NCBI GenBank assembly: GCA_016777585.1
Contig: JADHRD010000011.1
Coordinates: forward strand, 1 to 38,361
Source: Rhodospirillales bacterium
GTDB lineage: Bacteria; Pseudomonadota; Alphaproteobacteria; Rhodospirillales; UBA2165
Length of the DNA: 38,361 nucleotides
Reading direction: 5' to 3'
This document shows, piece by piece, positions 21,781 through 38,361 of the stretch. Numbering within the stretch: the stretch's first letter is position 1; every line of letters begins with the position of its first letter. The notes beneath the pieces are model-generated. The model had not been told where the DNA came from, ran no database searches, and worked only from the letters and a program-made list of their open reading frames with translations. The position numbers and the translations under genes are program-made.

Positions 21781-22563
21781 ATGGAACCAATTCGAATAGC
21801 TTACCAAAGTTATACCAATGAAAAACAAGCTGGTAGTTATTGGAAGCATTTAAAAAAACACATAAACGAGATTGTCGATGATGGAACCGTCGTTGATATC
21901 TTAGGAATTTCACCCCCTGACTCCCATGCCCATTCGTTATCGGAATTTAGATGCGCTCGAGAAATGATTTCGAACGCAATAACTGCAGATAAAGATGGGT
22001 ATGATGGCTTTGCAATTGGTCATTTCCAAGACGCAGGATTATATGAAGCGCGAGCTTCAGTCGAAATGCCAGTCCATTCGTTAGGTGAAGCTTCAATGTT
22101 ATACGCCTGCCAATTAGGCCAGAAAATTGGAATAGTAACAATTAATCCAAAGTACATCTCATGGTTTCATCACCAGATTGGCAAATATGGCTTAAGAGAA
22201 AGAATAACCGGCGTTCATGCAATGGAATTTGAACCGGGATCTATTTTGTCGGCTTTTGATAGAAAGAATGGACTTAAAGAGACCCTAAAATTATTTGAAC
22301 AACAGTCACTGCCTCTAGTCGAACAAGGTGTTGATGTTATAATCCCAGGCGGGGGGATTCCAATGTTACTATTTAGTGGAGCATTCAATCATAATGTTGC
22401 CAAGGCGCCAGTGATCAATGGGATCCCCATTTTAGTAAAAATGACTGAAATGGCAATCAAGCTAAAACGTTTAACTGGCCTAACAGTGAGTAGAACGAAT
22501 GACTTTGCAAAACCATCTCTTGAATTAATCGAAGAATTCTTAGCAAATCCAAAAGGCTTATAA
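21781..22563 (+). CDS. Asp/Glu racemase-superfamily protein lacking both catalytic cysteines
   Basis: 260 residues. The two-fold repeat of the Asp/Glu/hydantoin racemase superfamily is visible: GFAIGHFQDAGLYEARASVE (first active-site loop), PVHSLGEASMLYACQLGQKIGIVT (written in part here: PVHSLGEASM) and GVDVIIPGGGIPMLL (second loop). In racemases each loop carries a Cys that removes or adds a proton. Here the first is His81 and the second falls on Gly190 or Gly191. A two-base racemase is therefore unlikely; decarboxylase, isomerase or lyase chemistry, as in arylmalonate decarboxylase or maleate isomerase relatives, is possible but those also keep at least one Cys. ATG 21781 follows AAGGA. First gene of the plus-strand operon. 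Confidence 0.82.
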   Translation: MEPIRIAYQSYTNEKQAGSYWKHLKKHINEIVDDGTVVDILGISPPDSHAHSLSEFRCAREMISNAITADKDGYDGFAIGHFQDAGLYEARASVEMPVHSLGEASMLYACQLGQKIGIVTINPKYISWFHHQIGKYGLRERITGVHAMEFEPGSILSAFDRKNGLKETLKLFEQQSLPLVEQGVDVIIPGGGIPMLLFSGAFNHNVAKAPVINGIPILVKMTEMAIKLKRLTGLTVSRTNDFAKPSLELIEEFLANPKGL

Positions 22564-22565
22564 AG

Positions 22566-23741
22566 TTGGATATCACGAGAAATAAATATGATGGTATCGC
22601 GGTATGTGCACCTGTTACAATTCCTTACACTAGGTATTCACTTAAGAGCTCACATTGGTTTTGCGGACAAAGTATTGCGGCCTTGATTAAGAGAGCAAAA
22701 ATAAAAAAAGAGGCTATTGATGGTTTTTGTATCTCTAGTTTTACGCTTAGTCCGGATAGTGCGGTTGGGTTAATGCAACATCTAGGTACGTCACCAAGAT
22801 GGCTAGATCATATACCAATGGGAGGAGCAAGTGGCGGCGTTGCGTTGAGGAGAGCAGCAAGAGCGGTGCAATCAGGGGATGCTGAGATAGTAGCCTGCGT
22901 GGGTGCTGACACAAATCATGTTGATACTTTTCGAAATACAATAGCAACATTCAGCCAATTTGCGAATGATGCTGTTTATCCCTACGGTTCAGGAGGCCCA
23001 AACTCTAGTTTTGCTTTCTTAACAGATTATTACATGAGAGAATTTGGCGCGAAACGAGAAGACTTTGGTAAGTTATGTATTGCTCAAAGAGAGAATGCCT
23101 TGCCGGTAAAGCACGCGATGATGAAAAAGTCACTGAACATGGATGACTATATTAATGCAAGAACAATCGCTGATCCTATTCGATTGTATGATTGCGTTAT
23201 GCCCTGTGCAGGGGCAGAAGGGTTTTTGGTCATGAGCATTGAAAGAGCAAAATTCTTAAAATTACCTTACACACAAATACTATCGACTATTGAACGCCAT
23301 AACGCCTTCCCAGATGATCCAATTCAGTATAGAGGAGGATGGGCAATTGATGTAGATGAATTTTACGAACAAGCTGGACTAGGACCAAAAGATATGGATT
23401 TAGTTCAACTTTACGATGACTATCCAGTAATCTGTTTTATGCAGATTGAGGATTTAGGATTTTGTGACAAAGGAGAGGCTTCTAAATTTATTAAAGACAA
23501 AGATTTAACCACTAAAGGCAATTTCCCCTTGAACACATCAGGTGGACAATTATCTCAAGGACAAGCTGGCGCAGGTGGTGGCTTTCTAGGTGTCGTAGAA
23601 ACAATTAGGCAACTAACAGGCGAAGTGCTTGGTTATCAGGTTGATAACGTTCAAAATGGTCTAGTATCATGCTTTGGAATGATAAACTATGACCGAGGCC
23701 TATGCACTTCAGCGGCCATCTTATCAAAAGGTGACCTATGA
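22566..23741 (+). CDS. Thiolase-fold protein without nucleophilic Cys (SCP-x/Ltp2-like)
   Basis: 391 residues from a TTG start at 22566 (AAAAGG lies 10 bases upstream; no in-frame ATG precedes conserved sequence). The first thiolase half includes HIPMGGASGGVALRRAARAV (83-102), where Gly87 takes the place of the acyl-accepting Cys. In the second half, LNTSGGQLSQGQAGAGGGF replaces the usual GHPxG His by Gln333, while Cys369 (VSCFGM) remains. QLYDDYPVICF (281-291) matches the lipid-transfer-type thiolase subgroup. Members of this subgroup pair with DUF35 proteins and cleave or form C-C bonds by retro-aldol or acyl-transfer chemistry. It starts two bases after the racemase-fold gene and overlaps the DUF35-SDR gene, so the two are very likely partners. 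Confidence 0.87.
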   Translation: MDITRNKYDGIAVCAPVTIPYTRYSLKSSHWFCGQSIAALIKRAKIKKEAIDGFCISSFTLSPDSAVGLMQHLGTSPRWLDHIPMGGASGGVALRRAARAVQSGDAEIVACVGADTNHVDTFRNTIATFSQFANDAVYPYGSGGPNSSFAFLTDYYMREFGAKREDFGKLCIAQRENALPVKHAMMKKSLNMDDYINARTIADPIRLYDCVMPCAGAEGFLVMSIERAKFLKLPYTQILSTIERHNAFPDDPIQYRGGWAIDVDEFYEQAGLGPKDMDLVQLYDDYPVICFMQIEDLGFCDKGEASKFIKDKDLTTKGNFPLNTSGGQLSQGQAGAGGGFLGVVETIRQLTGEVLGYQVDNVQNGLVSCFGMINYDRGLCTSAAILSKGDL

Positions 23742-24979
23742 CAACACCGCTTTCTAAGCCTAAGAGAAAAGATCCTACAAAGCGAACACGAATTCCGAGT
23801 TTGCCTCCAGGGAAACGTTCACGAGAGGCTCACGGTTTAACTGCCATGGCGGCAGTTGGAAGGTTTGCTCTTCAAGTATGCAATGAGTGTCAGAAAGTTC
23901 AATATCCCCCCAGACAAATATGCAGTAATTGCTTAAACGATAAGTTGTTTTGGCGAGATGTAAATAACGGGGGCAAACTTCTGGCAGAAACAAAACTTCA
24001 ACACTCAAACGATACCTATTTTCGCGACAGAATTCCGTGGAGACTCGGTATCGTGATTGCCGATGCTGGCCCTTCCATAGTGGCTCATCTGGGAGAAGAT
24101 TGTATTCGCGATCAACGTGTTAGAATGTCACTTTCTATTGATCGCGCAGGTAATGCAGTGATAACAGCAAGACCAGAGAAACCAACTCAATTGGAGGAGG
24201 ATGACGTGCAATTACGTGAAATGGCTTTCAATCCTAAAGATAGGCGAGTTTTGATTGTTGATGGTAAAACTGAATTAGGGCTTCGCATAGCGGAAAATAT
24301 GGTTGCCGCCGGCGCTCGAGATGTATTTGTAGGATCTGCAGAACCTTGGCGCTCAAGCAGTTATCTAGATAAAATAAAAGATCTAGAGCGGACCTCAATA
24401 TATTCTCTTGATGTAACAGATACAGAGTCTGTCAAAGAATTAGCATCGATGATTGGAGATAAAGTCGAAATATTAGTAAATAATAGCTACCATCTTCGTA
24501 TGGGTGGACTAGTTGATAAGTTCGATATTAATACAGCTCATGATGAGATGGAAATTCACTATCATGGTCTTATGAGGCTAGCAGCATTCTTCGGACCAAT
24601 TATGAAATTACGAAGTGCCGACGGCCCACAAGGCGCGTCGGCATGGCTTAACGTTTTATCAGCTTATGCTCTGATAAATAATCCCGATCTTGCCACGTAC
24701 TCAGCTTCCCAAGCTGCTGCGTTGTCACTTTCTCAATGCTTAAGGTCAGAAATGGCTGCAGGTGGAATTCGAGTGCTAAATGCTTTTACCGGGCCAATTG
24801 AGGATGAATGGCAACAAATTGCACCACCCCCTAAGCTCATACCAGATACAGTTGCAAAACGAATAATAAAGGGGCTCCAAGATGGCAAAGAAGATATTAT
24901 TATTGGAGCGGTAGCAGAGGAAATCTGTGCGCGTATAGCCGAGAATGCCAAGGAAATAGAGCGCACAATTAAGCTTTAG
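23738..24979 (+). CDS. DUF35 (zinc ribbon + OB fold) - SDR fusion protein
   Basis: 413 residues with two joined modules. Residues about 35-150 form a DUF35 unit: a rubredoxin-like zinc ribbon with Cys48, Cys51, Cys62 and Cys65 (CNEC, PPRQICSNC) and an OB fold (IPWRLGIVIADAGPSIVAHL). Residues about 167-395 form an SDR domain: RRVLIVDGKTELGLRIAENM with a degenerate glycine motif, ILVNNSYH, Ser308 (LNVLSAYA) and Tyr321 in YSASQ, where Gln325 replaces the usual Lys. DUF35 proteins act as obligate partners of thiolase-fold enzymes and channel CoA intermediates. The start overlaps the thiolase-fold stop (ATGA). The SDR part may reduce or oxidise the carbonyl handled by the complex, or be structural given the altered residues. 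Confidence 0.88.
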   Translation: MTTPLSKPKRKDPTKRTRIPSLPPGKRSREAHGLTAMAAVGRFALQVCNECQKVQYPPRQICSNCLNDKLFWRDVNNGGKLLAETKLQHSNDTYFRDRIPWRLGIVIADAGPSIVAHLGEDCIRDQRVRMSLSIDRAGNAVITARPEKPTQLEEDDVQLREMAFNPKDRRVLIVDGKTELGLRIAENMVAAGARDVFVGSAEPWRSSSYLDKIKDLERTSIYSLDVTDTESVKELASMIGDKVEILVNNSYHLRMGGLVDKFDINTAHDEMEIHYHGLMRLAAFFGPIMKLRSADGPQGASAWLNVLSAYALINNPDLATYSASQAAALSLSQCLRSEMAAGGIRVLNAFTGPIEDEWQQIAPPPKLIPDTVAKRIIKGLQDGKEDIIIGAVAEEICARIAENAKEIERTIKL

Positions 24980-25006: not shown

Positions 25007-25804
25007 ATGCATAATGAAAATAAAAAGCCAACCCAGTTATTGGAGCTAGTGACAGCAATTACGCGAGGAAATATCAAAGTAATAGATCTTACAATGACAC
25101 TCGATCGAAAAGTTCCAACAATAGTTTTACCCCCGGAATTGGGACAATCCTGGCCGTTTAGAATGGAAGAAATCTCTAAATATAATGAAAAGGGGCCCGC
25201 TACGTATTGGAATAATTTCTCTTGTGGCGAACATACGGGAACCCACTTTGATGCTCCAATACATTGGATTTCAGGAAAAGACCTGCCTAATAATTCAACG
25301 GATACTATCGAACCAGAAAAGTTTATAGCCCATGCATGTGTTGTTGATTGTTGCAGGGAAGCAGAGAAAAACCCCGACTACCTCCTTACTATTGACGATG
25401 TATGCAGCTGGGAAAAAACGTACGGAAAGATCCCACCACGCTCTTGGTTATTAATGCGAACAGACTGGTCCATGAAGAAGACACCAGAAGAATATCTTAA
25501 TCTTGATGATGAGGGTGCGCATACGCCCGGGCCACACGAGGAATTAATACCATGGTTGATTGATGAGCGTGACGTAATCGGATTTGGTTGCGAAGACGTT
25601 GGCACCGATGCGGGACAAGCGAGCAACTTCAAAACCCCAATGCCATGCCATCATTTGATGCATGGGAGAGGAAGATTCGGCCTTCCGGCGCTTACTAATC
25701 TCGACAAACTTCCGGCACAAGGAACAGTCATAATAACCCCTCCGCTTAAAATAAGACAAGGTTCAGGAAGTCCAGTGCGCGTCCTAGCACTCATTGAAGA
25801 GTAA
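25007..25804 (+). CDS. Cyclase/kynurenine formamidase-family metal hydrolase
   Basis: 265 residues. The signature HxGTHxD is present as His76-Thr-Gly-Thr-His80-Phe-Asp82 in SCGEHTGTHFDAPIHW, with His86 following; these bind Zn or Mn. VIDLTMTLDRKVP near the N-terminus, RSWLLMRTDWSM, GFGCEDVGTDAGQ and the C-terminal SPVRVLALIEE fit the family. Known members hydrolyse N-formylkynurenine, isatin or cyclic carboxylates in the cytosol. It begins 27 bases after the DUF35-SDR gene and is followed by a CoA ligase. A role in opening a ring or hydrolysing an amide or ester before CoA activation is an inference from order. Confidence 0.9.
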   Translation: MHNENKKPTQLLELVTAITRGNIKVIDLTMTLDRKVPTIVLPPELGQSWPFRMEEISKYNEKGPATYWNNFSCGEHTGTHFDAPIHWISGKDLPNNSTDTIEPEKFIAHACVVDCCREAEKNPDYLLTIDDVCSWEKTYGKIPPRSWLLMRTDWSMKKTPEEYLNLDDEGAHTPGPHEELIPWLIDERDVIGFGCEDVGTDAGQASNFKTPMPCHHLMHGRGRFGLPALTNLDKLPAQGTVIITPPLKIRQGSGSPVRVLALIEE

Positions 25805-25814
25805 TAAATTACAG

Positions 25815-27356
25815 ATGCCAGAAATAGATAACAACAACGGACGACAACTAATCCAACAAGCGTCCAATACAAGTATTGGAGGACTTTTTACTCAGGTTGT
25901 AAAACAAAGTCCAAATTCAATAGCTATCATTAGTGGAACCCAAGAAGTCAGTTTTCACGAATTAAATTTAAGAGTTAATATACTTGCAAATGAGTTAATT
26001 AATAAGGGAATAAAGCTAGGAGACCGAGTTGCATTAATCTCAAAGAACTGTGCTGAATGCATAGAGCTTGAATTAGCATGTGCAAAGATTGGGGGTATAT
26101 TGGTGAGTCTAAATTGGCGATTGACCCCTCCCGAAATTGAGCATTGCATCGACCTCACAAATCCAAAAATAATATTTGGGTCAGAAGATTTTGTCTTAAC
26201 TCTGAACCAAAAAACAAAAGTAGAATATGTTTCTTTCGGACCCCAATATGAGAAATTATTTATTAATACAGTTCCCTCAGTTATTCCACTTATCGTCGAC
26301 TCTGAAGCTGGTTTAGTAATAATTTTTACAAGTGGCACGACTGGATTACCTAAAGGGGCACTCTTGAGTCACCGGGCTTTAATTTTCAGAGCATTAATAT
26401 TTGCCAGCGAGACAAATGCACCAATTAACGATACATTTGTTGCTTGGACACCCCTGTATCATATGGGGTCTAATGATTTTAGTATTGCAACACTTTTGCG
26501 TGGGGGCAAGGTAATCATTATCGATGGGTACAATCCTGACCAAATGATAGATGCAATCGAAAAATATTCTATACATTACTTTACGGTAGTGCCTGGAATG
26601 ATCGAGGATTTTATATCTAAATTAAAGAAAAGAAACACTAAACCAAAACCTATTGGGTTGATAGGTGCAATGGCTGACCTAGTCCCAAAGCCTCTTTTAG
26701 AAGAAATCACCAAGTTACTGAATGCTCCCTATTTTAATACTTTCGGTTCCACAGAGACTGGCAACCCACCCGCCTCCGGTAACCTTGTACCTATTGGTAA
26801 AATACCAAACGTATTATCAAAAAAACAAAATCATTTTTGTGAAATCCGCCTTGTAAATTCTGAAGGTAAAGACGTCAAAAAAGGGGAACCAGGTGAGCTC
26901 GCTATTAGAGGTCCGAGCTTATTTTCAGGATATTGGGCTAATAGTGAGGCGAACGCAGAAGCGTTTCGAGACGGTTGGTTTCATATGGGCGATGTTTTCA
27001 AGCAAACATCTGATGGCCTCCTCGATTTTGTCGACAGGGTAAAATATATGATAAAATCAGGCGCAGAGAACATTTATCCTGCAGAAATTGAAAAACATTT
27101 ATTTTCAGACCCACGAATTTTAGATGCAGCCGTGGTTCGAAAATCCGATGAAAAATGGGGTGAAGTGCCTGTAGTATTTGTAGCCAGTACGAATAAAATA
27201 AGTAGTGAACAGGTAATAAACATTTGTAAGGGAAAGATAGCAAATTATAAATTACCAAAAGAAGTTTATATGATTGATATTAACGCTTTCCCACGAAGCA
27301 CATCTGGAAAAATCCAGCGACATATTTTAGAGGCACGACTAGAAGCCCTAGGTTAA
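25815..27356 (+). CDS. Acyl-CoA synthetase (AMP-forming, ANL superfamily)
   Basis: 513 residues. Adenylation motifs occur in order: P-loop IIFTSGTTGLPKGALLSH, FVAWTPLYHMGSNDFS, FNTFGSTETGNP, GWFHMGDVFKQTSDGLLDFV, the hinge region DRVKYMIKSGAENIYPAEIE and the catalytic Lys499 in RSTSGKIQRHIL. It activates a carboxylate through an acyl-AMP to the CoA thioester. The substrate pocket does not identify chain length. I use ATG 25815; a TTG at 25794 would overlap the cyclase gene and add seven residues without conservation. It closes the plus-strand operon and ends 10 bases from the convergent TRAP permease. Confidence 0.92.
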   Translation: MPEIDNNNGRQLIQQASNTSIGGLFTQVVKQSPNSIAIISGTQEVSFHELNLRVNILANELINKGIKLGDRVALISKNCAECIELELACAKIGGILVSLNWRLTPPEIEHCIDLTNPKIIFGSEDFVLTLNQKTKVEYVSFGPQYEKLFINTVPSVIPLIVDSEAGLVIIFTSGTTGLPKGALLSHRALIFRALIFASETNAPINDTFVAWTPLYHMGSNDFSIATLLRGGKVIIIDGYNPDQMIDAIEKYSIHYFTVVPGMIEDFISKLKKRNTKPKPIGLIGAMADLVPKPLLEEITKLLNAPYFNTFGSTETGNPPASGNLVPIGKIPNVLSKKQNHFCEIRLVNSEGKDVKKGEPGELAIRGPSLFSGYWANSEANAEAFRDGWFHMGDVFKQTSDGLLDFVDRVKYMIKSGAENIYPAEIEKHLFSDPRILDAAVVRKSDEKWGEVPVVFVASTNKISSEQVINICKGKIANYKLPKEVYMIDINAFPRSTSGKIQRHILEARLEALG

Positions 27357-27366
27357 TAATTATTTA

Positions 27367-28773
27367 TTATTGCGCAATGAATGGAAGCCAAGTCGCAATT
27401 TTCGGAAAAGTAATAATTAATGCAACCACAATCATAGCACATGCCATAAATGGGATAGCCGCCAAACAAATTTCTGAAAAACGAGTTCCAGTTGGAGCAA
27501 CACCCTGCATAACGAATAGCAATAGTCCAAAAGGCGGAGTTGTAAAACTTATCTCCATTGCCAACAGCATTATAACGGCAAACCATATTACTTGTTGCTC
27601 GGGCCCCATTCCTAGATCAAAACCAGCCATAATAGGAAAAAAAATTGGCACGGTGAGCAACATCATTGCCAACTGATCCATAAACATTCCTAAGAATAAT
27701 AGTATTACGAACATCACTAATAACATGCCCAACCCTGTGATATCAAAACTGGTCACCCATTCTATTAGTTTTACGCTTGCACCAGATCCAGCAAGAACGT
27801 TCGAAAATAAACTAGATCCAAAAAGTATCATTAAAGCAATGATAGTTACCCTACTGGCTCCCCACATTGATTTCCACATTGCATGACAAAAGTTTGGCCA
27901 AAATATTTTTACTTTTTCATAATCACCTTTTATAAGAGGAATAAAGAATAAATATATAAAAGAAAGAATAATAACTCCAACAGATCCATATGCGGCCGAC
28001 TCTGATGGTGTTGCCACCCCAAACATGATTAGCAAAATTACAAGAAATATAACGGAAACCATAGGAACCACATCTACGAGTAAATACTTTAATTTAAGAG
28101 CCCAGGATATTTTTTCTACAGGATAAGTTGGCGCTAAAGATGGATTTATAGTAACCCTAATATAAATTAGCCCAGCGTACATTACTGCCAATATTAGTCC
28201 CGGAATAACCCCTGCTATAAGTAACTTACCAATATCCAACTCAGCCAGTGTACCAAGAAGAACAGCAAGAGCAGATGGCGGAATTAACATCGCCAGTCCA
28301 CCTGTCCCCAATATAGGGCCAATAGACATACTTTTATCATACCCACGCTGTTGCATTTCAGGAACCATCAACGTTCCAAGCAACGCGGTCGATCCCATTG
28401 ATGAACCAGATAATGTAGCAAAAGCAGTTCCCCCAGCAACTGTAACATAAGAGAGCCTGGCTGGCGTGCTACCCATGAGGTTTTCAATAGCGTCAAACAT
28501 CCGTTTTGCTAAACCTGAGTGAAAAAAGAGCTCTCCCATTAATAAAAACATTGGGATTGGAACAATAGCAAATATCGCCAGATTTGAGAATGTATTATCA
28601 GTGAGTTGCTCAATACTCGCTGAAACATTGGCATCAAAGGTACCAAACCGCCCGTATAAAAAAAATGCTGCTATAGAATTTACTAAAATAAAAGCGATAC
28701 CTATCGGAACTCCGACAAACATCAGAAACAGTATTGAGCCCAGCAAAACGCTTAAAATCCAATACCACTCCAT
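27367..28773 (-). CDS. TRAP transporter large permease (DctM type)
   Basis: 468 residues, about twelve transmembrane segments, the family's usual size for the larger DctM types. Landmarks are LFLMFVGVPIGIAFILVN, LFLMGELFFHSGLAKRMFDA, SMGSTALLGTLMVPEMQQRGYD, IPPSALAVLLGTLAELDIGK and GMFMDQLAMMLLTVPIFFPI. It forms the Na+-driven transport channel of a tripartite ATP-independent periplasmic uptake system. It follows the small permease with no gap and is last in the P-Q-M order. The substrate is likely a carboxylate of the neighbouring catabolic genes. Confidence 0.95.
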   Translation of the reverse strand: MEWYWILSVLLGSILFLMFVGVPIGIAFILVNSIAAFFLYGRFGTFDANVSASIEQLTDNTFSNLAIFAIVPIPMFLLMGELFFHSGLAKRMFDAIENLMGSTPARLSYVTVAGGTAFATLSGSSMGSTALLGTLMVPEMQQRGYDKSMSIGPILGTGGLAMLIPPSALAVLLGTLAELDIGKLLIAGVIPGLILAVMYAGLIYIRVTINPSLAPTYPVEKISWALKLKYLLVDVVPMVSVIFLVILLIMFGVATPSESAAYGSVGVIILSFIYLFFIPLIKGDYEKVKIFWPNFCHAMWKSMWGASRVTIIALMILFGSSLFSNVLAGSGASVKLIEWVTSFDITGLGMLLVMFVILLFLGMFMDQLAMMLLTVPIFFPIMAGFDLGMGPEQQVIWFAVIMLLAMEISFTTPPFGLLLFVMQGVAPTGTRFSEICLAAIPFMACAMIVVALIITFPKIATWLPFIAQ

Positions 28774-29340
28774 TTAACTCAATCCCTCGAGATCACGTTT
28801 GGTTTCTTCCAGCTCAATTCGATCGCTTGCGATACCGGCCAAACCAGTATGCATGGGTTCAGATGTAAATATAAAGCGAATAAATTCAATCGCCATCAAC
28901 AAAAAGCCAATCGGGAAAGGTATTGTGCTTACCCAAAGAGGTATATCCCATTGAGCGCGAAGTTCATCATATGCCATAATATCACTGAGTCGATCAAGGC
29001 ACAGTAATCCAGAATACCAAGACCATGTAAGACATAAGCATCCGGCCAATAAACAGATTAAACGAGAAATAATACGTCTCTGTGACTCACCAAGTGCCGC
29101 AGTTAACATCTCTATATAGACGTGACCACGATTTCTAATCAAATAAGGTGATCCTAGAAAGAGAATATAGATAAAACCATATTCAATAAATGGGATTGTT
29201 GTTGGAGTATAATACAATCCCAAATATCTAAACCCACTTGAGTAAACAATAGCGAGCATTATCAGGGCGATATAGACAGCAGCAATGCCCATCAATCCCC
29301 CTAATAATTTGCCCCAGATTAAATCAATTTTTTTGATCAT
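28774..29340 (-). CDS. TRAP transporter small permease (DctQ type)
   Basis: 188 residues with four transmembrane helices. LFLGSPYLIRNRGHVYIEML is the typical DctQ signature (the family's RxxxHVxxD-like segment). LWVSTIPFPIGFLLMAIEFI lies near the C-terminal helix. It is the membrane partner of the large permease, whose ATG comes directly after this stop codon. A 45-base gap separates it from the binding protein gene. Confidence 0.92.
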   Translation of the reverse strand: MIKKIDLIWGKLLGGLMGIAAVYIALIMLAIVYSSGFRYLGLYYTPTTIPFIEYGFIYILFLGSPYLIRNRGHVYIEMLTAALGESQRRIISRLICLLAGCLCLTWSWYSGLLCLDRLSDIMAYDELRAQWDIPLWVSTIPFPIGFLLMAIEFIRFIFTSEPMHTGLAGIASDRIELEETKRDLEGLS

Positions 29341-29385
29341 CTAAAGCGCTCGAATAAACATCAACTTATTAACACTGATTATTTT

Positions 29386-30399
29386 TTATTGCTGCCATGC
29401 TGCCCTAAGTTTAGCTACATGATCTGTACTTCTCTTAGCTTTCTTTAATCGCGCAATCATTCGTTGATAAGCCGAATCTACCGCGAGTTTTAGGTATTTA
29501 TCAGGGTTAGGAACCTGATGAAACTTCATTCCACCTTTTAGGAGAGCAGCTTTCTCTTCTTTATGCATTTTTGAAAGCAAATCTCTATTTGAAAGTTCAA
29601 ATTCCATAACTGTAGACTGAAGAATATTCTGTGCTTCTTTGCTCAGACCATTCCATTTTTTTAGATTCATGATCCAACCAAGATCAGTGGCATAAAAATC
29701 AGGCTCAACAGCGTGCCGAAGCATCTTATCCCATTTTAAGCCTCTCAGTCCAATAGTGGCCCAAGCCGCAGCATCAACTACACCCTTTTCCAATGCTCCG
29801 TATGTTGCAGTCGCTGGTAAACTATGCTGGGTCCCACCCATAGCCTCTATGAAAGCTCCATAAATTGGATTACCCCTAAGTTTCAGACCTTTAAAATCAA
29901 CAAGCCCATTAGAGGCAAACTTTGGAGTATCTCGCATATAAAATCTAAATTTATTTCCATCTCCAGTCCAACCCAAGTACTTTACCTTAAAATGTTTTTG
30001 CTGAAGCTTATCCAACATATCAATGCCACCCGATTTTCTAGCCTGTTCTATCGAAGAACTAGCTGTCGAAACAGCCTCTAACTCTGGAATTGCTCTCGCA
30101 TAAAAAGCAGCAGGGATACAGTTTAAGTCAACACGACCCTTGCTCACCGCCGGAGCTTGTTGAAACATTTTAATTGAGTTAAAGGGCAATACATCAATTT
30201 TGATAAGACCTTTACCTCGTTTATTTATAGCGGCTACAAGAGCCTTACAATTTTTTGTATATTGCAAAAAATCCGGAAATGGATAGACCAAAGTAAGTTT
30301 AGTCTCCGCATTTACATTTTTTGGAATGCTCGAAAAAAGAGCAGACATGCAACAGATCGTCAAAAAATATGCAAACATTGATATTTTTATTATTTTCAT
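29386..30399 (-). CDS. TRAP transporter substrate-binding protein (DctP type)
   Basis: 337 residues. The N-terminal signal peptide (basic KIIK, hydrophobic about 8-24, likely cut after VNA at 31) sends it to the periplasm. The mature part shows TLVYPFPDFLQYTKNCKALV, FKGLKLRGNPIYGAFIEAMG, with the family's carboxylate-binding Arg in KLRG, and ATYGALEKGVVDAAAWATIG. ATG 30399 has GGGAG 9 bases upstream. The DctP subfamily with this Arg binds organic acids; it probably feeds the 30550-38294 pathway. A 150-base AT-rich gap upstream may hold a separate promoter. Confidence 0.94.
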   Translation of the reverse strand: MKIIKISMFAYFLTICCMSALFSSIPKNVNAETKLTLVYPFPDFLQYTKNCKALVAAINKRGKGLIKIDVLPFNSIKMFQQAPAVSKGRVDLNCIPAAFYARAIPELEAVSTASSSIEQARKSGGIDMLDKLQQKHFKVKYLGWTGDGNKFRFYMRDTPKFASNGLVDFKGLKLRGNPIYGAFIEAMGGTQHSLPATATYGALEKGVVDAAAWATIGLRGLKWDKMLRHAVEPDFYATDLGWIMNLKKWNGLSKEAQNILQSTVMEFELSNRDLLSKMHKEEKAALLKGGMKFHQVPNPDKYLKLAVDSAYQRMIARLKKAKRSTDHVAKLRAAWQQ

Positions 30400-30549: not shown

Positions 30550-31233
30550 TTAAATCAGTTTCTCAATAACCTCCGCCACAGTTTGGACATCCGTAAATAA
30601 ACCATAAATAGACCTTAATGAGTTCTCATGAGCCTCTGGTGTCATTGCCGCAAGAGCATCTGAAATCATAGTCGTGTTGTAATTTAACATCATCGCATCA
30701 CGAGCCGTTGCTTCGCAACACACGTTTGTCGCAACTCCGGAAATCAAGACATTATCAATCTCGTGCGATCTAAGTTGTTGATTAATATCCGACGATCCCT
30801 CTATAAATGCACTGAAACGTGTTTTTTTTACATATATATCTTCTTTTCCCAGTATAAGTTCTGGCCAGATTTGATAACCTTCATGGCTCTCAGAGAGTTC
30901 TAAATTTCTTCGTTCCCAATTTTTTTCAGAATAGAATTTTTTATATACACTCCAACCTTCGGTAGCATCGGGAGCAGCAGTAGTTTGAATCCAAACGACC
31001 TTTCCGCCTTTTGCACGTAGATTATTTGCCAGATTATTGATTTCCGGAACAATTTTTATCGCTGAAGGGCACGCGGCCAAAAAACCTGTTTTGATGAAAT
31101 AGTTCTGCATATCCACAACGACAAGTGCAGTTTTTCTGGCAACGAAAGTCTCATTGATATACTCTCGCCCAATACGAATTCTTGATTGATTGCGGAACCA
31201 CGTTCCTATTTTCCCATCCATAACTTCAGGCAT
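30550..31233 (-). CDS. Isochorismatase-fold cysteine hydrolase (putative amidase)
   Basis: 227 residues. The catalytic triad of the amidase type is complete: Asp41 (LVVVDMQNYF), Lys137 (VKKTRFSAF) and Cys172 (GVATNVCCEATARDA). Family members hydrolyse amides such as nicotinamide, maleamate, N-carbamoylsarcosine or ureidoacrylate. An N-terminal extension of about 34 residues precedes the core. It lies four bases after a second isochorismatase-fold gene and downstream of hyuA, so hydrolysis of an amide or carbamoyl product of the Hyu step is plausible; the precise substrate is unknown. Confidence 0.92.
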   Translation of the reverse strand: MPEVMDGKIGTWFRNQSRIRIGREYINETFVARKTALVVVDMQNYFIKTGFLAACPSAIKIVPEINNLANNLRAKGGKVVWIQTTAAPDATEGWSVYKKFYSEKNWERRNLELSESHEGYQIWPELILGKEDIYVKKTRFSAFIEGSSDINQQLRSHEIDNVLISGVATNVCCEATARDAMMLNYNTTMISDALAAMTPEAHENSLRSIYGLFTDVQTVAEVIEKLI

Positions 31234-31237
31234 TTAT

Positions 31238-31831
31238 TTATCCCCCTAATGAGTCGATCAATTCCGAACATGTTTTTATATTAGCGACAGTTTTTAGATC
31301 TTTAATAGCAACTTCATGAACGCTTTGATCAAAAGCTGCACAACCATCGGATAATACAGTATTTTGATAGCCGTGAACATGTGCATCGCGAACAGTCGAT
31401 GCAACCCCGCCATTTGTTACTATACCCCCAAATATTAAGTTCGTAATTCCAGCCTGTTTTAAGAGCCAATCCAAACGGCTCATATAAAATGCTGAATATG
31501 CGACCTTTTCGACAAATAGATCAGATGGAGCAAGTTCATCAATTAAATCATGACCAAAACTACCAGATAAGAAATCACCCTTAGACAGAAAAGGCCGGAG
31601 TTCTTGAAGATGTTCAGAAATAAAGGGCTCGCGATTTTTACCTGATACTAATGTGAAATGCGTAGAAACTATCCAACCGCCTGTCTCTCGAATTGTATTG
31701 GCAACTGGTTTTAATAAAGCTGGCAAAGACGAAATATATTCTGAAGTCGCTCCACCACGGGCATAAGCTCCACTCGAATGTATAAAATCATTCTGCATAT
31801 CAATTAGTACAAGTGCTGTCGTATTTATCAT
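31238..31831 (-). CDS. Isochorismatase-fold hydrolase with Gly at the catalytic Cys position
   Basis: 197 residues. Asp11 (LVLIDMQNDF) and Lys109 (VEKVAYSAFYMSRL) are conserved, but the nucleophile motif reads GGIVTNGGVASTVRDA, with Gly142 where amidases have Cys. Cys-free members such as PhzD use the Asp for vinyl-ether hydrolysis, so a non-amidase reaction is likely, or the protein pairs with its Cys-containing neighbour. The start overlaps the hyuA stop by four bases, and the second isochorismatase-fold gene follows at once, so translation of all three is coupled. Confidence 0.88.
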   Translation of the reverse strand: MINTTALVLIDMQNDFIHSSGAYARGGATSEYISSLPALLKPVANTIRETGGWIVSTHFTLVSGKNREPFISEHLQELRPFLSKGDFLSGSFGHDLIDELAPSDLFVEKVAYSAFYMSRLDWLLKQAGITNLIFGGIVTNGGVASTVRDAHVHGYQNTVLSDGCAAFDQSVHEVAIKDLKTVANIKTCSELIDSLGG

Positions 31832-33909
31832 AATAAATTTTTCCGAGAAATAATTAAATTCCCAAACTTGTCGACTCGGCCTTCAAGGTCTGGATCTAAA
31901 AAAATGGTTGTATCAGGCTGCTCGAGAAGCGCTGGACCCAGCACGCATTGGCCTTCAGGAAGACTTAAGCGATCATATATGTCCGTTTGCCACCAAGCCC
32001 CCTCAAACCAAACCTCACGGGACCCAGTTTTACTATCTTTAATTGAATCATTAGCTGAGGGGCCTAATATAGAAAGATCAAATTTTGGCCGATGGCCAAC
32101 AACTATCACTCTAAGATTTAAAACTCTCATTCCAATATCAACCAATAAACGGCCAAAAGTTTGCTTATATGTATTTTCAAATGCACTTTGAATCATATTC
32201 AGATTCAAACTACTCTCTATTGTTTCCAATCTAATTGGGAGTTTGACTGCAACTGTATGTGTTTGCCCTAAATAAAGCATATCTAACTCAATTGCAGTTT
32301 CCACTCCGTCAAACTTAACATCTGCTTCAGATAAACTTTTTTGGCCTTCATTTGCCGTCGCTTTTATTTCCGATACCAATTCGTTGATATTTAGATCTTC
32401 GAGAATGCTATTAATCGTATGCACTTTATCAAATCGCATATCAGCAATAACGCACCCCAAGGCACTTGTAACACCGGGATAACGTGGAACTAAAGCTTTT
32501 GAGAGACCAACATCTTTAATAAGAGCACCTGCGTGCAGCGCACCGCCGCCACCAAAAGGCATGGCAACAAATTTTTGAGGATCGTGTCCACGTTCTACAG
32601 ATACTAATCGAATAGCGCCAGCCATCTTTGCATTTGCGACTCTAATAATAGCTTCAGCTGCCGCCATTACCTCAATATTTAGAGGATCAGCAATATGTTT
32701 TTCTATTGAAATTTTAGCTGCTTTGACGTCCAAGCAAGCTAATTTACCTCCAATTGGCTTGTCAGCATTAATCCGGCCTAAAACAACATTTGCATCTGTT
32801 ACCGTTGGACGATCATTACCTTGACCGTAACAAACTGGACCGGGATATGATCCGGCACTCTCTGGACCAATTTGCAGCAAACCACCCCGATCAACCGAAG
32901 CAATTGAACCCCCGCCAGCGCCAATCGTAGTGATTTCAACCATTGGTGTCCTAACGACCATTCCAAAATCAACCGATGTTTGGGCCGCCAGCGAACTCTC
33001 TCCGTTTGCAACAACGGATACGTCAAAACTTGTTCCCCCCATATCACATGTGATCAGATTAGGAAAACCAGCGCTTAGCCCTATATAGGCGCCGGCAATA
33101 ACGCCAGCTGCTGGACCAGATAACGCTGTTCTAACTGGAAATGATCGAGCCATATTAACAGACATTACCCCACCATTTGATTGTACAATTAGTATTTCCC
33201 CTTCAAATCCACCTTTTCGAAGTCCTGCATCTAATCTTTCAAGATAGTTACCAATGGGAGGCTGCAAATAAGCATTTAACGTAGATGTAGAACAGCGTTC
33301 AAATTCACGAATTTCAGGGAGAATTTGAGATGAGCAACTGATGTGATCATTAGGCCAGATTTCTCTCAATACTTCATAAGCAATCTTTTCATTTAGATCA
33401 TTTGCATAACTATTCATAAAGAATATACAAACCGACTCAGCCCCCAAATCTATAAGTTTTTTTGCAGCAGTTTTTACATCAAGTGGATCTAGAGCTTTAT
33501 GAATTGTGCCATCAGCTAAAATACGTTCATCAACCTCAACTCGTAATTCACGCGATACAATCGGTTTAAAAGTTCCCCATAGACCCCACGTTTCTGGGCG
33601 GTCACGACGTCTCATTTCTAATACATCTCGGAAACCTTTAGTTGTAATAATACCTGTTTTGGCACCTTTTCGTTCCAAAAGGGCATTGGTGCCAACTGTA
33701 GTACCGTGAATGATTAGAGAAACACCTGAGAGTTTTTCCTGCTGTTTTGCAATACCCTCCTGGATCCCCAGAGATTGATCATCATGTGTGGAAGGTACCT
33801 TAGCAACATTGCATGAACCATCTGCTTCATTCAGAAAAAAAACATCAGTAAACGTACCGCCCACGTCTACACCGACAACCGTTTGACGTTCTTCTTTATC
33901 ACCAATCAT
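31828..33909 (-). CDS. hyuA: Hydantoinase/oxoprolinase family, ATPase subunit HyuA
   Basis: 693 residues, the normal HyuA length. The ASKHA ATPase fold is marked by VVGVDVGGTFTDVFFL near the N-terminus, HGTTVGTNALLERKGAKTG, SNGGVMSVNMARSFPVRTAL, GPAAGVIAGAYIG, TCDMGGTSFDVSVV and ITTIGAGGGSIASVDRGG. The subunit uses ATP to activate an amide carbonyl for ring opening (5-oxoproline, hydantoin) or carboxylation (acetone, acetophenone). Together with HyuB downstream in order it forms one enzyme. One base separates it from hyuB. Confidence 0.93.
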   Translation of the reverse strand: MIGDKEERQTVVGVDVGGTFTDVFFLNEADGSCNVAKVPSTHDDQSLGIQEGIAKQQEKLSGVSLIIHGTTVGTNALLERKGAKTGIITTKGFRDVLEMRRRDRPETWGLWGTFKPIVSRELRVEVDERILADGTIHKALDPLDVKTAAKKLIDLGAESVCIFFMNSYANDLNEKIAYEVLREIWPNDHISCSSQILPEIREFERCSTSTLNAYLQPPIGNYLERLDAGLRKGGFEGEILIVQSNGGVMSVNMARSFPVRTALSGPAAGVIAGAYIGLSAGFPNLITCDMGGTSFDVSVVANGESSLAAQTSVDFGMVVRTPMVEITTIGAGGGSIASVDRGGLLQIGPESAGSYPGPVCYGQGNDRPTVTDANVVLGRINADKPIGGKLACLDVKAAKISIEKHIADPLNIEVMAAAEAIIRVANAKMAGAIRLVSVERGHDPQKFVAMPFGGGGALHAGALIKDVGLSKALVPRYPGVTSALGCVIADMRFDKVHTINSILEDLNINELVSEIKATANEGQKSLSEADVKFDGVETAIELDMLYLGQTHTVAVKLPIRLETIESSLNLNMIQSAFENTYKQTFGRLLVDIGMRVLNLRVIVVGHRPKFDLSILGPSANDSIKDSKTGSREVWFEGAWWQTDIYDRLSLPEGQCVLGPALLEQPDTTIFLDPDLEGRVDKFGNLIISRKNLL

Positions 33910-33910
33910 G

Positions 33911-35644
33911 TCAGCCCTTCCTTCTCAATAGATTGGTTTCTTTTACATTGAGAACGCCATCCTCTGATACGACACAGTTGTATTCTTTCAGAGCTGAAGC
34001 GGACGTTACATAGCCTAGGCGGGCATCATCGGCAACCAGACTTGGATCTCGTTCAAGCGCGCTCCCGTATCCACCTCCTCCTGGAGTTTCCAAACGAATT
34101 CTCTGTCCTTTATTAAGGTGTATACCAACCATCTTTGACACCATCGGCGGTGAAGTTTTATCATTCAAAGCTGATGGATAAGTAAATTTGTTTAATGCTC
34201 CTGTTTTCCCGCCATTAATTCCTGGGGGGCCAAATTTACCCCGCTCGCCAAACAAAAAAGCATCTGCCTTTTCCTCAAGTAACTCAATCTCATAGATAGC
34301 GCCACAACCACCGCGATTTTTTCCCGATCCACCACTATCGGGCCTCAGGGCCCACTCAGTAAAAAGAATTGGATATGCAGCCTCTAGGATTTCGAGGGGT
34401 GGAATTGTAGCTGTTGAAATTGGAGCATTACCATGGTTCAAACCATCACCCTCTGGGTGACCACCGTGACCTCCCCCAAAAAAAGAAAACATTACCCAGC
34501 GAGAACCATTTTTACGATAACCTGACATTGACAAGGCATTTATTGTTCCATAAGCACAGCCATTACTAATTTCTGGAGCAACCTGAGAAATACATTGAAA
34601 CATGACATCAATAACACGCAGAATAGTCTCTGTGTACCCGCCAACCGGCTTTGGCCGGCTAACACTTAAGAGGCTATCGCTTGGAATCACAAAATTGATG
34701 GGTTTTAACACTCCAGCATTTGCTGGAACTTCGCGAAATATATGCTTCAAGGCAACATAGCATGAGGCTATACATGTTGAATAAGATATGTTTACAGGTC
34801 CATCGCATGCAACAGAAGTGCGAGAGAAATCCAATGTCATCTGGTCGCCTTTGATACTGAGGTCAAGAGCAATTTTTAGGGGTTCATCAATAATGCCATC
34901 ATTATCTAACCAATCTTCGGCAGAATAGGTCCCATCGCGAAGTTCGCTGATATAACTCGCCATAAGTTTCGCAGCGCTATGATTCAACTCAACCAAAGCG
35001 GATGTCACTATGTTTTCACCATACTCTGAAAGTAAATCATTAAGCCTTAAATCGCCCAATTCCAGAGCGCTAACTTGACCATTCAAGTCTCCATAAAGAC
35101 TACCGGGCAAACGAGAATTAGATTGGAGTATCGATATAATATCACTATTGAGAACACCTTCTTTATATAAGAGAACTGGAGGGATAAGCATGCCTTCCTG
35201 ATAACATTCTGTTGCCACGGGGTTATAATTACCGGGCACATTTCCTCCTACATCGTGCCAGTGCCCAACTGATGCCAGAAAACAGAATATTTCACCGTCA
35301 TAGAAAAATGGCCTAACAAGTTTGAAATCTGACAAATGTGTCCCTCCCTCATAAGGGTCATTAAATATAAAAACATCCCCAGGCCTCAGAGTAAGCTTCT
35401 CCTTCCTAACTTTATCAATCACTAGTTTTACGGCAAAAGACATTGCACCAACAAATACAGGCAAACCCGATTTACCCTGCACTAATGTCTCACCAGTTTC
35501 AGCATGATAAAGGCCGTGACTGGCATCATGAGCTTCAGCGATTATCGGATTAAATGCACTACGGAAAAGTGTCGCATCCATCTCATCTGCGATTTGTTCT
35601 AATCTACCTTTTAGAACAGCTAGGAGAACAGGATCTAATTTCAT
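33911..35644 (-). CDS. hyuB: Hydantoinase/oxoprolinase family, subunit HyuB
   Basis: 577 residues, the usual HyuB length. Signatures include SAFNPIIAEAHDASHGLYHA, GDVFIFNDPYEGGTHLSDFK, FLASVGHWHDVGGNVPGNYN (His/Asp-rich metal site), PKPVGGYTETILRVIDVMF and the C-terminal RIRLETPGGGGYGSALERDP. It works with HyuA in ATP-dependent hydrolysis of a cyclic imide/lactam or in carboxylation. ATG 35644 lies ten bases after the lyase stop. The neighbouring amidases argue for hydrolysis rather than carboxylation; that is inference. Confidence 0.93.
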   Translation of the reverse strand: MKLDPVLLAVLKGRLEQIADEMDATLFRSAFNPIIAEAHDASHGLYHAETGETLVQGKSGLPVFVGAMSFAVKLVIDKVRKEKLTLRPGDVFIFNDPYEGGTHLSDFKLVRPFFYDGEIFCFLASVGHWHDVGGNVPGNYNPVATECYQEGMLIPPVLLYKEGVLNSDIISILQSNSRLPGSLYGDLNGQVSALELGDLRLNDLLSEYGENIVTSALVELNHSAAKLMASYISELRDGTYSAEDWLDNDGIIDEPLKIALDLSIKGDQMTLDFSRTSVACDGPVNISYSTCIASCYVALKHIFREVPANAGVLKPINFVIPSDSLLSVSRPKPVGGYTETILRVIDVMFQCISQVAPEISNGCAYGTINALSMSGYRKNGSRWVMFSFFGGGHGGHPEGDGLNHGNAPISTATIPPLEILEAAYPILFTEWALRPDSGGSGKNRGGCGAIYEIELLEEKADAFLFGERGKFGPPGINGGKTGALNKFTYPSALNDKTSPPMVSKMVGIHLNKGQRIRLETPGGGGYGSALERDPSLVADDARLGYVTSASALKEYNCVVSEDGVLNVKETNLLRRKG

Positions 35645-35653
35645 AGATTAAAT

Positions 35654-36529
35654 TTAACCTCCACCATCATATTTCTCTCCTAATTCCAACATTTTATCTG
35701 TACCGAGAAGTGCATTTAACTCATTAAAATCAAACATATTATTTTGATAATTAATCGTCGACCCATTACTTTTTAAAAATCTAAAGTATTGATCCGCAGC
35801 ATGGGCAATAACCCTCACTAAGGCTCCCGGGAATATAACAATTGAAAAACCCAGTCTCTCCAGCTTATCTGCAGGCATCAGCGGTGTTTGCCCTCCCTCA
35901 ACCATATTTACCAATTGAGGGATGTTTTTATCCAAAGTAGAAATTGCGTGTTTTATTTGTTCATTACTCTCAAATGCTTCCACAAATAAAACGTCCGCTC
36001 CCGCCTCAATATATCCGTGCGCACGATTTAAAGCTGATTCATATCCCTCAACCGCTATCGCATCTGTCCGGGCAATTATAATTGTATTATCATCGTTGCG
36101 TGCATCTAGAGCAGCTCTAATTTTGCCATTCATTTCTTGCGGACTGATAAGCGTCTTTCCTTTTAAATGTCCACATCTTTTAGGTAGAGATTGATCCTCA
36201 ATCTGAATTGCTGACGCACCATTACGCTCAAGAACTTTAACCGTACGCTGAACATTTAGAGCATTTCCAAAACCCGTATCTGCATCAACGATAAGGGGAA
36301 GTCCGGTACGCTCTCTAATTGCACCAACCACATTTGCGAGTTCTTCTGCTGTGATAAGTCCAATGTCCGGTCGACCCAATTTAGTATAGGCGATTGATGC
36401 TCCAGATAAATAGAGGGCTTCAAAACCCGCTATTTCTGCCATCATTGCCCCAAATGCATCAAAGATTCCTGGTGTAAGCAGAATATTGTCTCTAGAAATC
36501 CGTTCTCGTAAAGTTTTCTGAGCAGTCAT
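35654..36529 (-). CDS. Isocitrate lyase/PEP mutase-family C-C lyase
   Basis: 291 residues from ATG 36529 (numbering here adds one for the TTG-started frame). The TIM barrel carries VDADTGFGN (82-90), the Mg-binding Asp pair, and LPKRCGHLKG with catalytic Cys120 in the gating loop; that Cys marks lyases (2-methylisocitrate, dimethylmalate or isocitrate) rather than PEP mutase. ARTDAIAVEG is also typical. It cleaves a 2-hydroxy-dicarboxylate or tricarboxylate to a keto acid plus an acid. GGGGAA lies 5 bases before the ATG, which overlaps the upstream stop as TGATG. Directly after a dehydratase pair, it recalls the dimethylmalate dehydratase-lyase step of nicotinate breakdown. Confidence 0.92.
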   Translation of the reverse strand: MTAQKTLRERISRDNILLTPGIFDAFGAMMAEIAGFEALYLSGASIAYTKLGRPDIGLITAEELANVVGAIRERTGLPLIVDADTGFGNALNVQRTVKVLERNGASAIQIEDQSLPKRCGHLKGKTLISPQEMNGKIRAALDARNDDNTIIIARTDAIAVEGYESALNRAHGYIEAGADVLFVEAFESNEQIKHAISTLDKNIPQLVNMVEGGQTPLMPADKLERLGFSIVIFPGALVRVIAHAADQYFRFLKSNGSTINYQNNMFDFNELNALLGTDKMLELGEKYDGGG

Positions 36530-37026
36530 CAATTTTCCCCTTTAAAGATACCTAATTTAGCTTCTAGAGAAGGTACTAATCCCCCAGCCTCAATCAGCTT
36601 CATTAAATTATCAGGAACTGGTTCAGTAGTTAACTCAATGCCTCTTGTCATATTTTTTATTTTACCTAATCTTAAATCCAAGCTTATTTCATCATTTGAC
36701 TTCAAGTCATCAACGTTTTTACAACTAACCACTGGTAACCCCAGATTAAAAGCATTTCTATAAAATATTCCACCAAATGAGGTCGCTATTACTGAGGCTA
36801 CTCCAAGTATTTTTAGAACTTGCGCTGCTTGCTCTCGACTTGACCCAACACCAAAATTTTTACCCGCAACAACGATATCACCTTTTTTAATACTTTTAGA
36901 AAAATTAGGATTTACTGTTTCTAAGCAATGGGCAGCTAATTGTTCAATAGGCAGCTTTATGTATCCACCGGGCGCCAAAATATCGGTGTTAATATCGTCA
37001 CCAAGTTTCCAGATTCGACCAATCAT
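36529..37026 (-). CDS. Aconitase/isopropylmalate dehydratase-family small subunit
   Basis: 165 residues, the size of LeuD-type swivel subunits of the shorter kind (homoaconitase/dimethylmalate dehydratase branch). Motifs are WKLGDDINTDILAPGGYI, VVAGKNFGVGSSREQAAQVL (the substrate-specificity and phosphate loop) and SVIATSFGGIFYRNAFNLGL. It completes the active site of the large subunit, whose stop overlaps its ATG as TGATG. leuA lies 15 kb away in another operon, so a catabolic role is favoured over leucine synthesis. Confidence 0.92.
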   Translation of the reverse strand: MIGRIWKLGDDINTDILAPGGYIKLPIEQLAAHCLETVNPNFSKSIKKGDIVVAGKNFGVGSSREQAAQVLKILGVASVIATSFGGIFYRNAFNLGLPVVSCKNVDDLKSNDEISLDLRLGKIKNMTRGIELTTEPVPDNLMKLIEAGGLVPSLEAKLGIFKGEN

Positions 37027-38291: not shown

Positions 38292-38361
38292 CAAAAATAA
38301 TTCCCTATAAATTCTTTAATCAGAGCATTCCCCAATACTGAGGTAACCAAAGTGCCAATAC
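38291..38361 (-). CDS. C-terminal fragment of an unidentified gene
   Basis: A minus-strand frame enters from the right edge and ends in TGA at 38293-38291, overlapping the ATG of the dehydratase large subunit. The visible C-terminus reads IGTLVTSVLGNALIKEFIGN and two further aromatic residues. The four-base overlap and same strand suggest an operon partner. I do not recognise the family from 22 residues. Confidence 0.45.
   Translation of the reverse strand, partial: IGTLVTSVLGNALIKEFIGNYF

Follow-up and report, generated by a model that had tools for sequence, protein, structure and literature searches.

A thiolase-fold protein without catalytic cysteine and a DUF35-SDR fusion as a probable retro-aldolase pair related to IadG and IadH

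Two overlapping genes of a Rhodospirillales contig (JADHRD010000011.1, assembly GCA_016777585.1; the whole stretch of 38,361 nucleotides is referred to as the window) encode a thiolase-fold protein that lacks the nucleophilic cysteine and a fusion of a DUF35 module with a short-chain dehydrogenase/reductase (SDR) domain. The pair probably forms a DUF35-coupled retro-aldolase in which the SDR half is a pseudoenzyme, and the related IadG and IadH of auxin loci ordered iadCDEFGHIJ would turn dioxindole-3-acetyl-CoA into isatin and acetyl-CoA. We infer the reaction, the residue roles and the complex as follows. A CoA ligase (25794-27356) would activate a beta-hydroxy acid, and the thiolase-fold subunit with its DUF35 partner would cleave the resulting beta-hydroxyacyl-CoA, giving acetyl-CoA and a ketone with no redox step. 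Tyr283 would serve as the base and Asp285, in the place of Cys304 of the bile acid retro-aldolase Sal, as the acid. The ketone would lie within a ring beside an amide, the adjoining isatin-hydrolase-family enzyme would open that ring, and the SDR-fold domain would stay for structure or assembly. In the auxin loci, IadI would be an isatin hydrolase producing isatinate (C8H7NO3), and decarboxylation would give C7H7NO. If this is true, a redox-neutral retro-aldol step to isatin followed by isatin hydrolase would replace the annotated middle steps of the iad pathway, which lets root bacteria remove auxin; a dead dehydrogenase domain would persist as a fused part of an aldolase subunit; and a sister pathway would occur in Alphaproteobacteria, with marine metagenome-assembled genomes (MAGs) and Defluviicoccus among its hosts. 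The features that carry the argument are:

22566..23741, + strand: Cys-less thiolase-fold protein resembling IadG, proposed as the retro-aldolase subunit (TTG start, 391 aa)
22824..22826, + strand: codon of Gly87, at the thiolase nucleophilic Cys position (aligned with Sal Gly89; 31/31 rows)
23412..23423, + strand: Tyr283-Asp284-Asp285-Tyr286 motif with the proposed base and acid, Tyr283 and Asp285 (YDDY in 36/36 loci)
23562..23564, + strand: codon of Gln333, at the GHP His position (Sal Gln352)
23738..24979, + strand: IadH-like fusion of DUF35 (zinc ribbon plus OB fold) and an SDR-fold domain (413 aa)
23846..24130, + strand: DUF35 module, residues 37-131 (zinc cysteines 48, 51, 62 and 65)
24227..24976, + strand: SDR-fold domain, residues 164-413, with degenerate cofactor loop and catalytic residues
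24260..24262, + strand: Asp175 where the TGxxxGxG loop of SDRs has its first Gly (Asp or Asn in 47/47 covering loci)
24698..24712, + strand: Tyr321 to Gln325 (YSASQ) at the SDR YxxxK position (Tyr-Lys pair in 1/45 covering loci)

Active site of the thiolase-fold partner

The thiolase-fold open reading frame (ORF) has a Pfam match to Thiolase_C_1, and its model reached a mean pLDDT of 81.6 and a pTM of 0.88. Searched with Foldseek, this model retrieved the Sal-Shy(DUF35) aldolase 9myr at rank 1 (E 3.6e-30) and Ltp2-ChsH2(DUF35), 6ok1, at ranks 2-3. By VIA, 9myr was again first (Z 47.1; root-mean-square deviation (rmsd) 2.6 over 374 residues) and 6ok1 scored Z 45.6, with SCP2-thiolases and PhlC placed below Sal, Ltp2 and BbsB. 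In addition, a profile of 31 rows found Sal first, with 231 bits.

All 31 rows have Gly87, Gln328, Gln333 and an unchanged YDDY motif, which align with Gly89, Gln347, Gln352 and YDCY of Sal; the YDDY stretch corresponds to YDHF in Ltp2. The initial annotation had placed Gly87 at the nucleophile and Gln333 at the GHP His, and the alignment with Sal bears out both assignments. According to the Sal study, the base is Tyr302 and the acid Cys304, Gly occupies the thiolase Cys position, and Gln347 and Gln352 lie close to Cys304 (PMC12329534). In the window protein, Tyr283 matches the catalytic Tyr, and the acid positions are held by Asp285 (the Sal place) and Gln333 (the Ltp2 place). Sal-Shy shares with the window pair the thiolase fold, Gly for Cys, the Tyr of YDxY, both Gln residues and a DUF35 partner (PMC12329534); in Shy, however, DUF35 is fused to MaoC (PMC11321319), whereas here it is fused to an SDR fold. 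The cholesterol retro-aldolase Ltp2-ChsH2 (6ok1) has in common the Cys-less thiolase fold and the DUF35 partner, and Tyr294 of its YDHF equals Tyr283; its second catalytic residue, Tyr344, is Gln333 in the window protein.

The DUF35-SDR fusion and its SDR half

Both ORFs lie on the + strand and share a 4-base overlap. The second had been described as a DUF35 (zinc ribbon plus OB fold)-SDR fusion, a description that the Pfam models confirm: zf-ChsH2 matches residues 37-69 (32.3 bits, above cut-off), OB_ChsH2_C residues 72-131 (23.8 bits, under its cut-off of 27.1) and adh_short residues 171-356. Each of the three matches 31/31 family members (E up to 0.001), and the four zinc cysteines of DUF35 are kept in 37/37 loci. 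The 413-residue model of the fusion reached a mean pLDDT of 80.3 and a pTM of 0.79; the best 50 fold matches for it are all SDRs, so the DUF35 fold was checked by Pfam and sequence only. A PADLOC scan of the fusion returned no match. A DUF35-SDR architecture was recorded in print in 2010 (PMC2954200).

The initial annotation had left room for two frames joined through a sequencing error. This origin was ruled out, since the fusion runs uninterrupted and at full length in independent genomes. A search of named genome contigs found six loci at 68-88% identity, five of which span residues 1-411 or 1-413; the sixth spans residues 1-336, where its contig ends. Among 60 relatives, the fusion occurs in 5 of 59 other genomes (69-88% identity). 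Besides the window's own copy, seven full-length fusions were found in the class sample (385 genomes) and seven in the phylum sample (398), and the loci taken from the two samples were these 14 full-length matches, the partial matches of G351, G251 and G260, and an SDR-only match (G610, L092) that was not counted. In a family outside the window's class, 17/250 genomes carry the fusion at full length, G781 of the phylum sample included, and 12 of the 17 gave loci (L100-L111). Furthermore, 34 of 35 matching plasmid records have one place covering at least 80% of the query; ten of the 35 were read (L081-L083, L093-L099). The stretches read around loci measured 4-38 kb, and absences around the loci hold only within them. 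Repeats were dropped before counting (L002-L006, L021, L069; L100, identical to L084; and L027-L035 with L056-L062, short and replaced). The 31-row fusion alignment omits L074, L075, L024, L026, L080 and L096, which are partial, DUF35-only or have an odd end; L096 was omitted from the 31-row alignments for a frame break in its thiolase. In that Azospirillum thermophilum locus (L096:939-2890) the thiolase-like gene is split across two frames, and the gene table has no feature there. On an Agrobacterium pusense plasmid (L097:8938-10197) the fusion is annotated from 9322, so that a large share of the DUF35 region encoded by the open frame is missing from the annotation.

The SDR half has a complete SDR fold, with 5u4s_B (an NADP complex) matching at Z 30.3 and rmsd 2.2 over 229 residues; neither of the classical motifs of active SDRs, TGxxxGxG and the Tyr-Lys pair of YxxxK, is present in the window's copy. 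Its cofactor loop reads VDGKTELG, against TGxxxGxG. Counted over the 37 loci plus 11 additional ones from a single family (f221), Asp or Asn replaces the first loop Gly in all 47 covering loci, and only 1/45 has both Tyr and Lys (19 have Tyr and 16 have Lys); earlier counts over the 37 loci alone were 36/36 for loss of the Gly and 0/34 for the pair. In f221, 11 of 12 loci keep Ser and Lys with Tyr changed to Phe. Control SDRs retained the first loop Gly in 35/35 cases and the Tyr-Lys pair in 29/35 (36 loci were tried and L013 gave no SDR; the IadJ of L080 is among the controls, as L042), and eight IadJ SDRs of the same loci retain TGGxxGIG and YSxxK.

The domain has nonetheless been retained under purifying selection. 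Between the window and L077 (NG86 method), dN/dS is 0.057/0.644 (about 0.09) for the SDR half, versus 0.049/0.837 (about 0.06) for DUF35; dS was saturated in six other pairs. Degenerate motifs in a domain that is still under purifying selection point to a probable scaffold, and the SDR half is, on sequence grounds, probably a pseudoenzyme with a structural or assembly role. Pseudo-SDR subunits are known from BbsCD, by a title cited in PMC10818641. In anaerobic toluene degradation, BbsCD/BbsAB brings a thiolase, a zinc-finger subunit and pseudo-SDR subunits into one pathway; there, however, the pseudo-SDR forms its own polypeptide within an SDR heterotetramer, and cleavage by the thiolase is thiolytic (PMC10818641). 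An iad-like cluster, L080, contains a stand-alone DUF35 frame of 172 residues (L080:6883-7398) with no SDR domain, followed directly by an intact IadJ.

The iad operon and competing readings

An isatin-hydrolase-family member stands beside the fusion in 33/37 loci; three other contigs end first, and in L095 none was found. A Rieske oxygenase (IadD/E) accompanies the module in 10/37 loci, and the order C-D-E-F-G-H-I-J is found in seven of these (L081, L082, L084, L090, L091, L093 and L098), all with the same Cys-less thiolase and DUF35-SDR fusion. The iad gene numbers of Variovorax paradoxus fit this order (PMC10374108). IadI of L081, a Labrenzia locus, matches isatin hydrolase A (5nnb) end to end over 257/257 residues with 586.7 bits. 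The window module shares with the iad operon of V. paradoxus CL014 the G-H-I order beside a CoA ligase (PMC12633357, PMC9613470). It differs in carrying a racemase-like gene, in having a ligase that is only distantly related, and in lacking IadC, IadD, IadE and IadJ. In a third layout (L085-L089, L094, L097), a racemase-like gene of another branch lies beside G-H-I, the cyclase motifs are of isatin type, and an OsmC-family gene is present in five of the seven loci.

Published genetics of the operon can be read against this arrangement. According to a preprint, anthranilate production falls when iadCDE or any one of iadF to iadJ is deleted, C10H9NO4 (dioxindole-3-acetate) builds up in strains that lack iadF, iadG, iadH or iadI, and the proposed pathway has C8H7NO3 and C7H7NO following the IadI step; the middle steps rest on annotation, with IadG a 'ketothiolase' (EC 2.3.1.16), IadH an 'alcohol dehydrogenase' and a broad-specificity amidase (PMC12633357). 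Judged from the sequences, neither of the first two names fits. The published formulas agree with the proposed route: by arithmetic, dioxindole-3-acetic acid equals isatin plus acetic acid, isatin plus H2O gives C8H7NO3, and loss of CO2 gives C7H7NO. An isatin hydrolase has also been described in rhizobial breakdown of indole-3-acetic acid (IAA; PMC6117287, citing work of 1995-1996). Ruegeria pomeroyi is reported to degrade IAA (PMC9613470); its megaplasmid holds L093, which may be the locus concerned. A search that excluded most subscription journals found no publication in which IadG/IadH is described as a retro-aldolase, IadH as a DUF35 protein or IadI as an isatin hydrolase. Genes resembling the alpha subunit of indolepyruvate oxidoreductase lie near L074, L080, L084, L091 and L094, and G632, G616, G535, G679 and G794 have them on the contig of the module at a distance of 15-26 kb; their products could convert isatinate to anthraniloyl-CoA.

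The initial annotation proposed that the complex makes or breaks a C-C bond and passes the carbonyl to the tethered SDR. In the iad pathway, this would mean a reduction of isatin to dioxindole. C-C bond breaking of the Ltp2/ChsH2 kind agrees with fold and profile; a working SDR is unlikely. In its favour, the SDR fold is complete and selected, the f221 loci keep Ser and Lys and one of them, L105, both Tyr and Lys, and C8H7NO2, the formula of dioxindole, accumulates without iadI, which the preprint's authors read as reductive side-chain removal by IadFGH (PMC12633357). Against this, the loop Gly is lost in every covering locus and kept in every control, the Tyr-Lys pair is almost always missing, L080 has a DUF35 protein without an SDR domain, and hydrolysis of dioxindole would yield C8H9NO3, not the reported C8H7NO3. 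Motif loss, the DUF35-only L080 and the redox-free balance of the proposed pathway together speak against a working tethered SDR.

C-acylation of the PhlABC/MucABC kind, or another Claisen-type synthesis, is less probable still. The PhlC pair had been named next to Ltp2/ChsH2 as a precedent for Cys-less thiolase-fold proteins with DUF35 partners; the second precedent holds and the first does not. Cys88 is catalytic in PhlC, and a family member has been deposited in the PDB under the title 'CsATase C88S'; PhlC-type acylases use a Cys that is absent here. PhlC does pair with a DUF35 protein, PhlB (PMC2954200), and the fold search retrieved such acylases too, at Z about 41.5, but they rank below Sal, Ltp2 and BbsB, and the context of TRAP uptake, CoA ligase and amidohydrolase looks catabolic. 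The thiolytic ketothiolase of the preprint annotation (PMC12633357) has the thiolase fold in its favour but is the least credible reading and is rejected, because the nucleophilic Cys is Gly and the GHP His is Gln (31/31 each), residues of thiolytic thiolases that the window protein lacks, and because dioxindole-3-acetyl-CoA carries a beta-hydroxyl and no beta-keto group.

Several results weigh against the retro-aldolase with a pseudo-SDR half, and L105 is one of them. By VIA, Ltp2 (45.6) is tied with Cys-bearing thiolases, the benzoylsuccinyl-CoA thiolase 7pyt (45.0) and the Pyrococcus thiolase 7yvy (44.9), and in the 31-row profile search the putative thiolase 4u4e came second (187 bits), above Ltp2, which was third (182 bits); fold alone therefore does not fix the reaction. 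The Sal catalytic Cys304 is Asp285 here and its oxyanion residue Gln161 is Pro145. In Sal, Cys304 is essential and Ala, Ser and His cannot substitute for it, with Asp not among the variants covered in the accessible text (PMC12329534). The window's DUF35 sequence matches solved structures weakly (6esq_E, E 0.004; 9myr_B, E 0.68). The main objection is the C8H7NO2 seen in the absence of iadI, which on the retro-aldolase reading requires isatin to be reduced in a side reaction. Such a reaction is possible, since V. paradoxus cultures are reported to contain dioxindole as well as isatin and isatinic acid (PMC9613470).

The window's own branch and its neighbours

When 36 thiolase-like proteins were placed in a tree, the 11 window-type ones came out as a single group with 100/100 support. 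This branch, W, comprises 12 loci, which share the racemase-like gene, G and H, as well as cyclase and ligase where the contig extends; its members are Alphaproteobacteria, including marine MAGs and Defluviicoccus. Identities between the window and non-W loci are 54-66% for G, 36-52% for H, 47-62% for I and 23-30% for the ligase. The window's five-gene run on the + strand comprises racemase-like, thiolase-like, DUF35-SDR, PF04199 cyclase and AMP-forming ligase genes, with a TRAP transporter convergent after it:

21781..22563, + strand: Asp/Glu/hydantoin-racemase-fold protein, first of the five module genes (PF01177, 71 bits)
25007..25804, + strand: IadI-like cyclic amidohydrolase of the isatin-hydrolase family, its pocket motifs changed to TYW and GLPA (isatin hydrolase 5nmp, 331 bits)
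25794..27356, + strand: AMP-forming acyl-CoA ligase, in IadF's place in the scheme (23-30% identity to the ligases of 19 non-W loci)
27367..30399, - strand: TRAP transporter dctM, dctQ, dctP, a possible uptake system, convergent with the module (binding protein at 29386-30399)

Two observations speak against extending the isatin route to this branch. The first is the absence of IadC, D and E beside W loci. Likewise, for IadJ the window and W stretches gave only weak SDR matches, e.g., 34% in L076. Searches for a close IadD (57% or more) found none in G000 (85% complete), G001 (98%), G005, G007, G245 or G338, and the best ring-hydroxylating dioxygenase of G000 reaches 37% over residues 10-398 of 436; G012 and G014 have IadD elsewhere, at 61-62%. 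G679 and G794, of another layout, are also without a close IadD, though their cyclases (L088, L089) carry isatin motifs, which calls for caution with this first observation. The second is the cyclase pocket. The window cyclase belongs to the same family as isatin hydrolases A and B (5nmp, 5nnb, 4j0n), for which WXW/FXW and GLQC/GLAS are the marks (PMC6117287), but W cyclases have TYW, IYW or CYW in place of WXW/FXW. GLPA occurs in 10/10 W rows and 0/22 others, which have GLQC or GLAS in 22/22; the first pocket Trp is missing in 10/10 W rows and in 4/22 others (L070-L073).

Placement of the window in the iad operon itself was rejected on these grounds, namely no IadCDE or IadJ and missing isatin motifs. 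The reaction type probably carries over to the window branch, but the substrate may differ from that of the isatin route. More specifically, and with slightly less than even credence, W may represent an undescribed catabolic pathway in which an N-heterocyclic hydroxy acid different from dioxindole-3-acetate is activated, cleaved by retro-aldol reaction and opened at its ring, with a dead but selected SDR scaffold, the same reaction with isatin as product being the side-chain step of auxin degradation. A hydantoin-like acid, suggested by the hydantoinase genes beyond the window's TRAP genes, was considered as the W substrate and dropped, as comparison of W stretches showed no recurring homologue of a hydantoinase. 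Outside the five genes, no neighbour is common to all W loci; TRAP genes, amidohydrolases and a phosphoenolpyruvate (PEP)-mutase/isocitrate lyase (ICL)-family gene recur in a few and did not point to a substrate.

The racemase-fold protein has His81 and Gly191 where the two family cysteines belong (GHFQD, PGGGIP), GHFQ being found in 18/18 aligned rows, the window's included; its top PDB match is the putative hydantoin racemase 3qvk. The TRAP genes adjoining the module are retained at 95-98% identity in L021/L077, different TRAP genes are found in L022, L025 and L078, and none were seen in the shorter W stretches. Beyond them, the - strand from 30550 to 38294 encodes two isochorismatase-family proteins, hydantoinase A and B, a PEP-mutase/ICL-family protein and the small and large parts of aconitase, a run that looks like a separate catabolic operon.

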